A stretch of DNA of 64,000 nucleotides, from positions 1 through 64,000 of the forward strand of contig JAAXXK010000002.1 in NCBI GenBank assembly GCA_013334525.1. The letters are read 5' to 3'. Shown here piece after piece: positions 50,614 through 59,879 of this stretch. The notes under the pieces are model-generated. The model ran no database searches and was not told where the DNA came from. It worked only from the letters and a program-made list of their open reading frames with translations. Origin of the DNA: Chlorobiaceae bacterium. GTDB taxonomy: Bacteria > Bacteroidota > Chlorobiia > Chlorobiales > Chlorobiaceae. A program made the translations under genes and the position numbers. Positions within the stretch are counted from its first letter, which is position 1. Each line of letters begins with the position of its first letter.

Positions 50614-50627
50614 CTACAATTATGTCT
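50614..50627. promoter_or_regulatory. Weak CTACA-N4-TGTAG-like site upstream of nifV
   Basis: CTACAATTATGTCT keeps CTACA and TGT at the spacing seen in the three dyads upstream of nifH, but loses the final AG. It is 109 bp before the nifV start. Confidence 0.4.
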
Positions 50628-51909: not shown

Positions 51910-53538
51910 ATGCTCATATCACACGAACAGGAACAGAGCAGCATCAGCCTTCTTGCAGAAGTAAGCCGGACGGTCAATAACGAAGAGGACATCAGCAAGG
52001 TCCTTCGGCTGGTGCTTTTCATCTTGTCGGAGCACATGAACATGCTCCGGGGCATGGTCACCATCCTGAACCGGGGAACCGACGAGATCGTCATCAACGA
52101 ATCGTTCGGCCTGACCGATGAGCAGAGCCAGCGTGGCCGCTACAAGGTTGGTGAAGGCATCATCGGACAGGTGGTCGAAACGGGAAAGCCTGCGGTCGTA
52201 CCCCGCATCAACGAAGAACCGCTGTTCCTCGACCGCACCAAATCGAGGTCAAGGGAGAAAAAAGAGGAGCTCTGCTTCATCTGCGTGCCCATCAAGGCCG
52301 GTTCCGAAATCATCGGCACCCTGAGCGCCGACAGGCGTATCTCGGCGCCCTCCGTCGACGGAACCGCAAAAAAGGCCAAGGCTGAAGAGGCCCGCAAGGA
52401 TATTCTCCAGTACTATGTCGACCTGCTCTCGATCATCGCGGCCATGATCTCGCAGGCTGTCCGCCTGAAGCAGCTGGACGCCGAGGAAGAGTCAGAACCT
52501 GCGCGCCAGCATCACGGTGTGTCACCGTCGAAGTCATTCCCCCACCTGGATGAGGAGTACGATGTTGAGTTCATGGAGATCGAACGACCGGCGAACATCA
52601 TAGGCAACTCAAAGCCGATGATGTCGCTTTTCAGGATGATCGACAAGATCTCCAAAACGAGCGCCACCGCCCTGATACTCGGCGAAAGCGGCGTCGGCAA
52701 GGAGCTTGTGGCCAATGCCATCCACTTCAAGAGCCTGAGGGCCGGCAAGCCGTTCATCAAGTTCAACTGCGCAGCCCTGCCGGAAAGCATCGTCGAGAGC
52801 GAACTGTTCGGCCACGAGAAAGGAGCCTTCACCGGCGCTGCCGCACTGCGTCAGGGCCGTTTCGAACTCGCCAATACGGGCACGATCTTCCTGGACGAGG
52901 TCGGCGAACTCAGCCTCTCAATACAGGCGAAGCTGCTGAGAATTATCCAGGAGAAGGAGTTCGAACGTCTTGGAGGCACAAAAACCATCAAGACCGATGT
53001 CAGAATCATTGCGGCCACGAACAGGAACCTCGAAGAGCAGATCAGGGAAGGAAGCTTCCGTGAAGATCTTTTCTACCGCCTCAACATCTTCCCGATCACC
53101 GTGCCCCCGCTTCGGGAGAGGAAAACCGACATCCTTCTGCTGGCGGACTACTTCGTCGAGAAGTTCAACCCCCTCAACCACAAGGGGATCAGGAGGATTT
53201 CGACCACCTCCATCGACATGCTGATGCGCTACCACTGGCCAGGCAACGTAAGGGAGCTGCAGAACTGCATCGAGCGGGCCGTGATTTTGAGCGAAGACAA
53301 CGTCATCCACGGTTACCACCTGCCGCCGTCGCTCCAGACGGCAGAATCGAGCGGCACGCCCTACACCGGCGACCTGCAGCAGAAGCTCGACGCGATCGAA
53401 AACGAGATGATCATCGAGGCCCTGAAAAGGACCAAGGGAAACATGTCGAAAGCCGCCGCACAGCTCGGCCTGTCCGACAGGATCATGGGGTTGAGGATGA
53501 AGAAATTCGATATCGACTACCGGAAGTTCAGGACCTGA
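51910..53538 (+). CDS. nifA: Nif-specific sigma-54 activator
   Basis: Enhancer-binding protein for nif promoters. The 542-residue protein has an N-terminal GAF domain (about 20-180; VGEGIIGQVVETGKPAVVP), an AAA+ domain with Walker A GESGVGKE (258-265), intact GAFTGA (305-310) and the arginine-finger region, and a C-terminal Fis-type helix-turn-helix (NMSKAAAQLGLSDRIMGLRMKKFD). The spaced cysteine cluster of oxygen-sensitive proteobacterial NifA proteins after the AAA+ domain is not seen. It is translationally close to nifV (4 bp). The likely target is the sigma-54 promoter at 58952. Confidence 0.92.
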   Translation: MLISHEQEQSSISLLAEVSRTVNNEEDISKVLRLVLFILSEHMNMLRGMVTILNRGTDEIVINESFGLTDEQSQRGRYKVGEGIIGQVVETGKPAVVPRINEEPLFLDRTKSRSREKKEELCFICVPIKAGSEIIGTLSADRRISAPSVDGTAKKAKAEEARKDILQYYVDLLSIIAAMISQAVRLKQLDAEEESEPARQHHGVSPSKSFPHLDEEYDVEFMEIERPANIIGNSKPMMSLFRMIDKISKTSATALILGESGVGKELVANAIHFKSLRAGKPFIKFNCAALPESIVESELFGHEKGAFTGAAALRQGRFELANTGTIFLDEVGELSLSIQAKLLRIIQEKEFERLGGTKTIKTDVRIIAATNRNLEEQIREGSFREDLFYRLNIFPITVPPLRERKTDILLLADYFVEKFNPLNHKGIRRISTTSIDMLMRYHWPGNVRELQNCIERAVILSEDNVIHGYHLPPSLQTAESSGTPYTGDLQQKLDAIENEMIIEALKRTKGNMSKAAAQLGLSDRIMGLRMKKFDIDYRKFRT

Positions 53539-53659: not shown

Positions 53660-55777
53660 TCAGAATCCTACCGCATAGGTCAACGCCCCGGTAAAGGCGT
53701 TGGTGGTGTTGAACGCCTGGCGGTTATAGGCCAGCGAAACGCTCAACCTTTGTGTTTTCGCAATCAGGTAATCCGCTCCGACCGATGCGAACAACCTGCT
53801 TTTGTCCGGCGATGGAGGGGAAAGCGCGAATGCTCCCAGGGTAGCAATCGATCCGCTATAGTCGTCAATGTGGTTGCTGAAGTCCTGCTCAAAGCCTGCG
53901 CTTGCCCTGATGGCGACCGTCGGCAGTACCTTGCCGTAAGTACGCACACCCGCATAGCCCGTTGTAGCGGTCTGAACCAGCTCGTTGTAGGTGATCGGGA
54001 AATCCACGTTCGTTTCGGCATAACCGCTCCGGGAGATCCTTGTTGCGCGAACACCCGCAAATGGCTGGCAACTCCAGGCTTCGTTGAGCCTGGCCCCCCA
54101 GGCACCCTCTACCTGAATACCCCGGGTCTCAAGGTGGGCTCGCCCCGAGCCGGCTTCCGTGTTGGGCAGCGTCAGGCGCGTGATTCCCGTGTTCAGGGAG
54201 TTACTGGCCGCAGAGGCCTTAAGCTCCGGCCCTACGCCATCTTCATTCTGCGACCATGCACCGAACACCCCAACCATGGGCGCGGAGTTATGCAGGTTGA
54301 AGTTGCCGGGAACAGAGTTCGCAAAGGTCTGGTCCACCAGGACTCCCGCCCTGAAATTCGGGGTGAAACGATAAGCCAGCCTGGCGAAGGCTACACCTGC
54401 CGATGCCGCAGGATCACCGATGTTCGCATATCGGCCACCGACGGCCACGCCGATGTTATTCTTGCCGAATACGAGGCAATCCTCGTTGAGGGCGGCGGTC
54501 AGCAGCGTATTCTGAAGGTTGAACAGCGAGTTGAGCTGCACACCGTTCAATCTAAGGGCGCTGTAGGTGTTATCCACATCAACCATGATGTTCCGGTACA
54601 GGAACACATGCCAGACAGCATCGCCCGCAATCATCGACTCGCCTGCGATCACCGACCCATCCGCTGACACTCCCATAGCCGCCGAATTGGAACCCCCCAG
54701 GGTGCCAAGGTCGGTCATTGTTCCTCCGGCATATTTATATGCGTGATAGTGAGCATCTCCAGCAAGATCCGAAAAACCGACGATCACTGAACCATTAGCT
54801 GATACTGCATTGGCATTCGAATTGGAACCTCCAAGGGTGCCCAGGTCGCTAATCGTGCTGCCGACATATTTAAACGCGTGATAGGCACTACCTCCATTAA
54901 GATAAGACCAGCCGACGATCACCGACCCATCATCCGAAACAGCCTTGGCAGAGGAGGTTGAACCGCCAAGGGTGCCAAGGTCGCTAATCGTGCTGCCGAC
55001 ATATTTAAACGCATGATAGTCAGTACCTCCAGGAACAAGGCCCGAATAACCGACAATGACTGACCCATTCGCTGAAACCGCATTCGCCTGCGAATTGGTA
55101 CCACCCAGGGTGCCCAGGTCGGTCATCGTGCTGCCGACATATTTAAATGCGTGAGAACCACCAGTTACACCCGAGGTACCGACAATCACCGACCCATTCG
55201 CTGAAACCGCCACAGCCTCCGAATAGGAACCACCCGCCAGGGTGCCAAGGTCGGTCATCGTGCTGCCTACATATTTAAAGGCACGAGAGCCAGCAGTTGC
55301 ATCCGAGGTACCGACAATCACCGACCCATCCGCTGAAACCGCCACAGCCTGCGAATTGGAACCACCCACAAGGGTACCAAGGTCGGTCATCGTGCCACCT
55401 ACATATTTAAAGGCATGAGAGCCACCAGTTACATCCGAGTTACCGACAATCACCGACCCATCCGCTGAAACCGCCACAGCCTGCGAACTGGAACCACCCA
55501 CAAGGGTACCAAGGTCGGTCATTATACCACCGGAATATCTAAATGCGTGATCGGCTGCATCTGCAGTAGTTTGTGCATAACCGACAATCACCATTCCATC
55601 TGCCGACAAAGCATAAAAAGAGGAACCGGTACCACCAAGGGTTCCAACGTCAATAAGGCCGCCCGAAGAAGAGCCGGAGCCGGCGAAGGAAGCATCGGGA
55701 AATCCGGCGACAGAGACCAGTCCTATCGCAATAAACGCTCGTAATGCGCGCAGTATTTGTTTGATGATGTGTTTCAT
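53660..55777 (-). CDS. HAF-repeat autotransporter-like outer-membrane protein
   Basis: A 705-residue exported protein. A signal peptide (IIKQILRALRAFIAIGLVSVAG, cut near SFA) is followed by eight HAF repeats of about 42-46 residues (about 40-395), each reading roughly TDLGTLGGSxSxAxAVSADGSVIVG ... HAFKY. From about residue 430 a C-terminal autotransporter-type beta barrel ends in LTYAVGF with the terminal aromatic residue needed for outer-membrane insertion. An extension to 55960 lacks a signal and is rejected. The passenger may be surface-exposed; binding function unknown. Confidence 0.88.
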   Translation of the reverse strand: MKHIIKQILRALRAFIAIGLVSVAGFPDASFAGSGSSSGGLIDVGTLGGTGSSFYALSADGMVIVGYAQTTADAADHAFRYSGGIMTDLGTLVGGSSSQAVAVSADGSVIVGNSDVTGGSHAFKYVGGTMTDLGTLVGGSNSQAVAVSADGSVIVGTSDATAGSRAFKYVGSTMTDLGTLAGGSYSEAVAVSANGSVIVGTSGVTGGSHAFKYVGSTMTDLGTLGGTNSQANAVSANGSVIVGYSGLVPGGTDYHAFKYVGSTISDLGTLGGSTSSAKAVSDDGSVIVGWSYLNGGSAYHAFKYVGSTISDLGTLGGSNSNANAVSANGSVIVGFSDLAGDAHYHAYKYAGGTMTDLGTLGGSNSAAMGVSADGSVIAGESMIAGDAVWHVFLYRNIMVDVDNTYSALRLNGVQLNSLFNLQNTLLTAALNEDCLVFGKNNIGVAVGGRYANIGDPAASAGVAFARLAYRFTPNFRAGVLVDQTFANSVPGNFNLHNSAPMVGVFGAWSQNEDGVGPELKASAASNSLNTGITRLTLPNTEAGSGRAHLETRGIQVEGAWGARLNEAWSCQPFAGVRATRISRSGYAETNVDFPITYNELVQTATTGYAGVRTYGKVLPTVAIRASAGFEQDFSNHIDDYSGSIATLGAFALSPPSPDKSRLFASVGADYLIAKTQRLSVSLAYNRQAFNTTNAFTGALTYAVGF
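54660..55640. repeat. Tandem coding repeats of the HAF passenger
   Basis: Eight direct repeats of about 126-138 bp inside the autotransporter gene. Several neighbours are nearly identical over long runs, so recent unit duplication or loss is likely. They are coding repeats, not a CRISPR array. Confidence 0.9.
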
Positions 55778-55916
55778 GACAAGGCATTGGGAGGGTTTAT
55801 TATCCAGCGCCAACAACGGGAAAAAGGAGATCAACGCAACATTGATACTCGGCAGTAATAAATGCCTTGCTTTAAACTTATGAATCTTTTTAATAAAAAG
55901 GAAAACCATCCTTTTT

Positions 55917-56015
55917 ATGACGCCTGAAACAGCGCAGGGAAACATATCGAAAGCCGCCAAACAGTTTAACTATTATGAAAGAATCATTTCGTTAAGAATG
56001 ATAAATTCGATATGA
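55917..56015 (+). pseudogene. Relic of a NifA-like C-terminal helix-turn-helix
   Basis: A 32-codon frame whose product GNISKAAKQFNYYERIISLR aligns with GNMSKAAAQLGLSDRIMGLR at the end of NifA, both continuing with M and a short tail. At DNA level AGGGAAACAT, TCGAAAGCCGCC and AAATTCGATAT are shared with nifA 53430-53520. No AAA+ domain precedes it. It lies upstream of the start of the autotransporter gene, 2.4 kb beyond nifA. The stretch 55778-55916 before it holds nothing else recognisable. Confidence 0.7.
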
Positions 56016-58607: not shown

Positions 58608-58621
58608 CTACATATTTGTAG
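58608..58621. promoter_or_regulatory. Dyad A upstream of nifH
   Basis: CTACATATTTGTAG, a perfect CTACA-N4-TGTAG palindrome preceded by TTC, 344 bp before the -24 GG of the sigma-54 promoter. Confidence 0.55.
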
Positions 58622-58754
58622 ATTCACCGCCACAAATAACGAGATCATGGCTGAATCGTCGCTCCTCAAAGGTAACGAAGCCGCCTTCTCCAAAAAAGTG
58701 CTGAATCCAACCCGATGAGTACGGGCGATAATCGTCGTTTTTGTGGCGCATTTC

Positions 58755-58768
58755 CTACAAATCCGTAG
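58755..58768. promoter_or_regulatory. Dyad B upstream of nifH
   Basis: CTACAAATCCGTAG, one mismatch from CTACA-N4-TGTAG, again preceded by TTTC; 147 bp from dyad A centre to centre. Confidence 0.5.
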
Positions 58769-58782
58769 CATCAGCGCAGTTC

Positions 58783-58796
58783 CTACAGAAATGTAT
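58783..58796. promoter_or_regulatory. Dyad C upstream of nifH
   Basis: CTACAGAAATGTAT, one mismatch from CTACA-N4-TGTAG, preceded by GTTC; 28 bp from dyad B centre to centre. Confidence 0.5.
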
Positions 58797-58951: not shown

Positions 58952-58967
58952 TGGCACGGCAATTGCA
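58952..58967 (+). promoter_or_regulatory. Sigma-54 promoter of the nif operon
   Basis: TGGCACGGCAATTGCA matches the -24/-12 consensus TGGCAC-N5-TTGCA exactly, with the invariant GG and GC 12 bp apart. Transcription should start near 58977, leaving a leader of about 78 bases before nifH. No strict TGT-N10-ACA NifA site was found upstream. Confidence 0.92.
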
Positions 58968-59042
58968 CCATAATCTTTAATTATTCAGGTCAATAATCGA
59001 CAAATGCCTGAATATTTTCAACACAAGAAGCGATTAACCTAA

Positions 59043-59879
<837 letters not shown>

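Follow-up and report, generated by a model that had tools for sequence, protein, structure and literature searches.

The nifH promoter of a Chlorobiaceae bacterium raises the question of which DNA sites its NifA recognizes. The classical NifA upstream activator sequence of Proteobacteria, TGT-N10-ACA, acts as the enhancer of nif sigma-54 promoters. NifA sites outside the Proteobacteria are little described, and an earlier description of one in Chlorobi was not found in a search of mainly open-access literature. In the window, that is, the whole 64,000-nucleotide stretch analyzed here, nifH (59055..59879, plus strand) is the first gene of a nif operon preceded by a sigma-54 promoter with −24/−12 elements at 58952..58967 (plus strand; TGGCACGGCAATTGCA), which is also the strongest conserved block in the upstream alignment described below. 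Three dyads, for which no strand is assigned, lie ahead of it. Dyad A (58608..58621; CTACATATTTGTAG) matches CTACA-N4-TGTAG perfectly, while dyads B (58755..58768; CTACAAATCCGTAG) and C (58783..58796; CTACAGAAATGTAT) carry one mismatch each. All three are preceded by TTC and fit the core TAC-N6-GTA exactly.

An earlier note on this DNA had reported these dyads, with their mismatches and their TTC, about 155–345 bp upstream of the promoter and thus at enhancer distance, and re-reading of the sequence bears this out: measured start to start, A, B, and C precede the promoter by 344, 197, and 169 bp, respectively. The note had proposed that they serve either as this lineage's NifA enhancer or as sites of another nif regulator. 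With high confidence, the comparisons below favor the former reading, in which A, B, and C are putative binding sites of the lineage's own NifA and would jointly serve the nifH sigma-54 promoter as its enhancer. Judged from sequence, this enhancer is very probably of a non-classical NifA type with a DNA code unlike the textbook TGT-N10-ACA.

At up to two mismatches, 23 dyad matches occur in the window, as opposed to 10.6 ± 3.2 in shuffled sequences, none of which reached 23 in 100 trials. The motif is infrequent in the genome as a whole (2.55 Mb), where 40 distinct dyad sites are found at up to one mismatch and 42 for a reversed control pattern; a palindromic site, being listed twice, is counted once. 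Three of these 40 sites fall inside the 345 bp before the promoter, corresponding to a Poisson probability of about 2.6 × 10−8. Elsewhere in the window, two identical CTACATATTTAAAG matches (55267–55280 and 55399–55412, 132 bp apart) fall in the repetitive part of a large autotransporter-like open reading frame (53660–55960, minus strand); they are coding repeats unrelated to the enhancer. Comparison with RNA families gave only a chance match, which scored 21 bits where the gathering score is 50.

Conservation was assessed in a family sample of 86 genomes, with nifH found in 81 of them, a tally that takes in a few where a nifH relative alone is present. Upstream DNA was read for about 70 nifH copies; 68 regions were scanned and 66 primary nifH copies tallied. 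The 68 regions contain 95 dyad matches at up to one mismatch and none of the reversed pattern, and the matches cluster at two places relative to the −24 element, around −197 (B) and −169 (C). When two mismatches are allowed, the B position is occupied in 56 and the C position in 62 of the 66 family genomes. The shorter motif AC-N6-GT occurs twice before nifH, exactly 28 bp apart, in 62 of 66, and a scan of B–C spacings from 18 to 44 bp finds 28 to be the best in 66 of 68 regions (ties given to 28). In both sites the AC and the G of the core hardly vary or do not vary at all. The complete pair, CTAC-N6-GTAG-N14-CTAC-N6-GTAG at up to two mismatches, is present in 69 of the 86 genomes, and all but six matches lie upstream of nifH (a few locations at contig ends were checked, the others judged from sequence). 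The conservation upstream of nifH in relatives that the note had named as its test is therefore strongly borne out by fixed positions and a 28-bp spacing kept across the family, and B and C hold the conserved position upstream of a −24/−12 promoter that characterizes sigma-54 enhancers.

Alignment of the whole upstream regions reveals B, C, the promoter, and a repeat in the nifH leader as conserved blocks, with no further conserved enhancer-like block from 380 bp upstream to the promoter. The classical site TGT-N10-ACA has 13 exact matches in 68 × 900 bp before nifH, compared with about 15 expected, and keeps no fixed position, while the VnfA site GTAC-N6-GTAC has no exact match in the 68 regions. 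Three second nifH copies (L023, L045, and L118 in genomes G075, G069, and G059) are without site C or the whole pair; those in G075 and G059 adjoin an alternative nitrogenase cluster, and the G075 copy is preceded by a degenerate sigma-54 promoter.

Dyad A represents a distal and optional site. In 28 of the 66 family genomes, a further match with no more than one mismatch is present on the upstream side of B; such sites number 29, where 0.63 would be expected. Their distance to B is variable, mostly 127–238 bp with a cluster at 145–151 bp. The distances from distal site to B show a phase preference at a period of 10.5 bp (R 0.54, n = 27), with a nominal p < 0.001 that is uncorrected for kinship. 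The spacing of A and B in the window is 147 bp, as the note had stated, and its reading as close to 14 helical turns fits this weak general tendency. The 28 bp between B and C correspond to 2.7 helical turns, so that these two sites face different sides of the DNA, a point that speaks against the NifA reading.

The proposed binder is encoded nearby. The nifA gene (51910..53538, plus strand) forms part of nifV-nifA located 5.5 kb before nifH, and its product combines a GAF domain, a sigma-54 activator AAA+ domain, and a Fis-type helix-turn-helix (HTH), so that both domain set and nif neighborhood are those of NifA. The DNA-binding HTH (residues 493–533, 53386..53508, plus strand; Pfam HTH_8) contains the recognition helix ...LGLSDRIMGLRMKKF. 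The best model, TIGR01817, scores 524.1 bits against a cut-off of 528.85 and aligns residues 12–471 only, whereas the orthologue of the sister family reaches 538.5 bits and the NifA proteins of Serratia and Methylococcus align end to end to the NCBIfam NifA model. The DNA-binding domain is the only part of the window's NifA left unaligned by the model, which explains the score just below the cut-off; automated annotation may consequently miss NifA in this phylum. A nifA gene was found in 80 of the 86 family genomes, and the five dyad-bearing genomes with no nifA match (G022, G045, G048, G071, and G082) are all incomplete or fragmented assemblies.

Similar dyads extend beyond the family together with a characteristic recognition helix. 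In the sister family (G086 and G087; L113 and L114), the 28-bp pair is kept, whereas the stretch between it and the promoter is longer or shorter by about 33 bp, so the pair spacing is more rigid than the distance to the promoter. CTACA-N4-TGTAG dyads also precede nifH in other Bacteroidota (G276, G394, G401, and G404) and in Verrucomicrobia (G402 and G403), many with the TTC tail and either single or paired 19, 30, or 31 bp apart. The helix reads SDRIMGLR in the window's NifA, TDRVMGLR in the sister family, TERVVGLR in Verrucomicrobia, and TERIMGLR, TERMFGIR, or TERMMGIR in other Bacteroidota; all these CTAC-type dyads are thus paired with a [DE]RxxG[LI]R helix. Against the NifA reading, dyads are weak despite such a helix in G397, G399, and G408 and GC-rich in G400. 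In its favor, no dyad was found upstream of nifH in G398, where the adjoining NifA has the helix type TGRMVRY. The TPRQ-type NifA (TPRQIAYR) of Serratia and NGR234 goes with TGT-N10-ACA at eight nif or fix promoters and the TTRQ-type NifA of Methylococcus with TGT-N10-ACA at two, and the CTAC dyad is present at none of these 10 promoters.

A comparable pairing of helix and site is seen at the alternative nitrogenase genes of the family. In the 11 family genomes with an alternative nitrogenase that were checked, its promoters carry GTNC-N6-GNAC pairs 30–31 bp apart (scored at up to three mismatches per pair) and no CTAC dyad. These pairs keep a fixed place, about 324–334 bp before anfH/vnfH-like genes (L101–L111), and most of the gene clusters are accompanied by a paralogous activator with the helix TRRxLSLKMQ. 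By sequence, the pairs are probable sites of this AnfA/VnfA paralogue. The same genome thus has a pair of activators that differ in helix type, along with two kinds of dyad that share one geometry. Taken together, the comparisons suggest a specificity rule in which the helix stretches DR/ER, RR, and PRQ would correspond to CTAC, GTNC, and TGT half-sites, respectively, with the agreement covering a modest number of independent lineages. Such a rule would be relevant to the transfer of nif clusters between hosts.

Among the closest known sites are those of AnfA in Rhodobacter capsulatus, whose consensus TAC-N6-GTA was measured by mutation and gel shift and of which two dyads are required for full expression (PMC7294313). 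The dyads described here share this core, the arrangement of two dyads before a sigma-54 promoter, and an activator that belongs to the NifA/VnfA/AnfA group and combines GAF, AAA+, and Fis-type HTH domains. They differ in their flanking C (CTAC...GTAG), their TTTC tail, their fixed 28-bp spacing, and the frequent third site. AnfA sites are further defined as bound by AnfA at an Fe-nitrogenase promoter, whereas the dyads here precede the Mo-nitrogenase nifH operon and the proposed activator is NifA. In Alphaproteobacteria, AnfA-like proteins were found but no anfH within the stretches examined, and plasmid searches found NifA, with no AnfA- or VnfA-annotated record among the matches listed. The VnfA sites of Azotobacter vinelandii, GTAC-N6-GTAC with the ChIP-seq motif GT(T/A)C-N6-GTAC (PMC9542535), resemble the dyads in the half-site geometry TAC-N6-GTA; however, their outer base is G instead of C, they regulate the V-nitrogenase, and their motif is closer to the GTNC-N6-GNAC pairs of the Chlorobiaceae alternative nitrogenase genes. 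The classical NifA site likewise serves as an enhancer of nif sigma-54 promoters but has another half-site and spacing, is bound by TPRQ-type NifA, and does not exceed chance here. Searches for TGT-N10-ACA will miss sites of the type described. The dyads provide a defined candidate site through which green sulfur bacteria would control nif, and homology extends it to other Bacteroidota and Verrucomicrobia.

Could the dyads have arisen or been maintained for other reasons? Their lack of genome-wide enrichment (40 against 42 for the control) is what speaks for the idea that a short palindrome has clustered by accident in intergenic DNA rich in AT, yet the arrangement has a probability near 3 × 10−8 in this genome, and dozens of genomes, as well as other phyla, keep its position and spacing. 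This conservation in relatives refutes chance clustering, the probability of which is negligible. The dyads could instead bind a different nif regulator, such as a further sigma-54 activator or a factor that responds to nitrogen, molybdate, or oxygen, with NifA acting elsewhere or without a specific site. Unrelated regulators also use symmetric TAC/GTA dyads, many sigma-54 activators exist in such genomes, and it is through sequence comparison that NifA is assigned to the dyads. Against this, the core is identical to the tested site of AnfA, a NifA paralogue, the site type tracks the NifA recognition helix whether different phyla or paralogues within a single genome are compared, and the upstream region offers no other conserved enhancer-like block from 380 bp to the promoter. 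Another regulator is accordingly judged unlikely. The agreement between helix and site and the different sites at the alternative nitrogenase promoters favor NifA over an unrelated regulator, and these points, together with the AnfA core, the unaligned DNA-binding domain, and the dyad-free G398, make NifA the likeliest binder by far. The first of the two readings offered by the note thus gains support from the conserved geometry, the sister family, Bacteroidota, and Verrucomicrobia.

A further explanation holds that B and C are the arms of a selected nucleic acid structure, either a hairpin that an upstream transcript would form as RNA or a cruciform in the DNA. It draws on the fact that C tends to be the reverse complement of B, spacer included, above the expectation from the nifH tree. 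In 6 of 62 genomes, C is the exact reverse complement of B throughout the 14 positions, with 0.1 expected from shuffled partners, and Watson-Crick agreement at the six inner positions amounts to 189 cells as opposed to 127 ± 14, a value reached in none of 400 simulations on the tree. Their agreement as direct repeats is as expected from the same simulation (132 against 131), and, of all columns, the two that covary most strongly join B to C. Examples lie upstream of nifH in L003, L014, L040, L054, and L055. However, the effect is episodic, with six of 62 genomes perfect, the window not among them, and most near the shuffled expectation. G-T mismatches (17) are no more frequent than A-C mismatches (19), so that no RNA strand is favored, complementarity ends at the 14 bp, the B–C region of the window folds no better than shuffled sequences, and the region is located upstream of the promoter. 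A selected structure is therefore considered very improbable.

Since the inverted agreement is episodic, without G-T preference, and confined to the dyads, it is better read as template switching than as a maintained hairpin; the inverted copies at B–C would probably represent quasi-palindrome correction by this mechanism. A similar signal appears independently of B–C at the alternative nitrogenase site pairs, where Watson-Crick agreement over 14 positions is 101 compared with 77.9 ± 4.9 (anfH-type L102 with 14/14 and L107 with 13/14). Far-apart A–C pairs show no reverse-complement excess, and the excess for A–B is only marginal (z 1.7). It is tentatively proposed, at slightly below even chances, that neighboring palindromic enhancer sites evolve together as inverted copies, with template switching during replication repeatedly turning one site of a pair, along with its spacer, into the reverse complement of its partner. 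The extension of this proposal, in which the process acts independently at the B–C and alternative nitrogenase pairs while the third site, 150 bp off, takes no part, is advanced with equal reserve. If true, homogenized operator pairs need not reflect selection on the spacer sequence.

Under the preferred reading of the dyads as NifA sites, comparison of sequences predicts that NifA binds them as dimers and activates transcription. One dimer would probably occupy each dyad (half-site CTAC, core TAC-N6-GTA), with B and C, 28 bp apart, as the obligatory pair and A as an additional, optional site whose helical phase roughly matches that of B. The bound NifA would then reach the sigma-54 polymerase at 58952 via DNA looping and spend ATP to open the nifH promoter.

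A weaker fourth dyad before nifV-nifA (50614–50627), which the note had counted with the set, did not hold up. It has two mismatches and lies 122 bp before nifV, but no sigma-54 promoter was found by it and no counterpart among the available nifV upstream regions of relatives, where one unrelated two-mismatch match occurs (L134, at −178).

The conserved repeat in the nifH leader is a separate element. This inverted repeat (58980..59015, plus strand; arms 58980–58989 and 59007–59015), ATTATTCAGG-N17-CCTGAATAT, begins a few bases past the expected transcription start. Nearly every one of 67 family sequences keeps its arms, the spacer being 16 nt in almost all and 17 in the window, and a few paired changes are seen, for example in L055 and L015. 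It may be either a 5′ mRNA hairpin or an operator.
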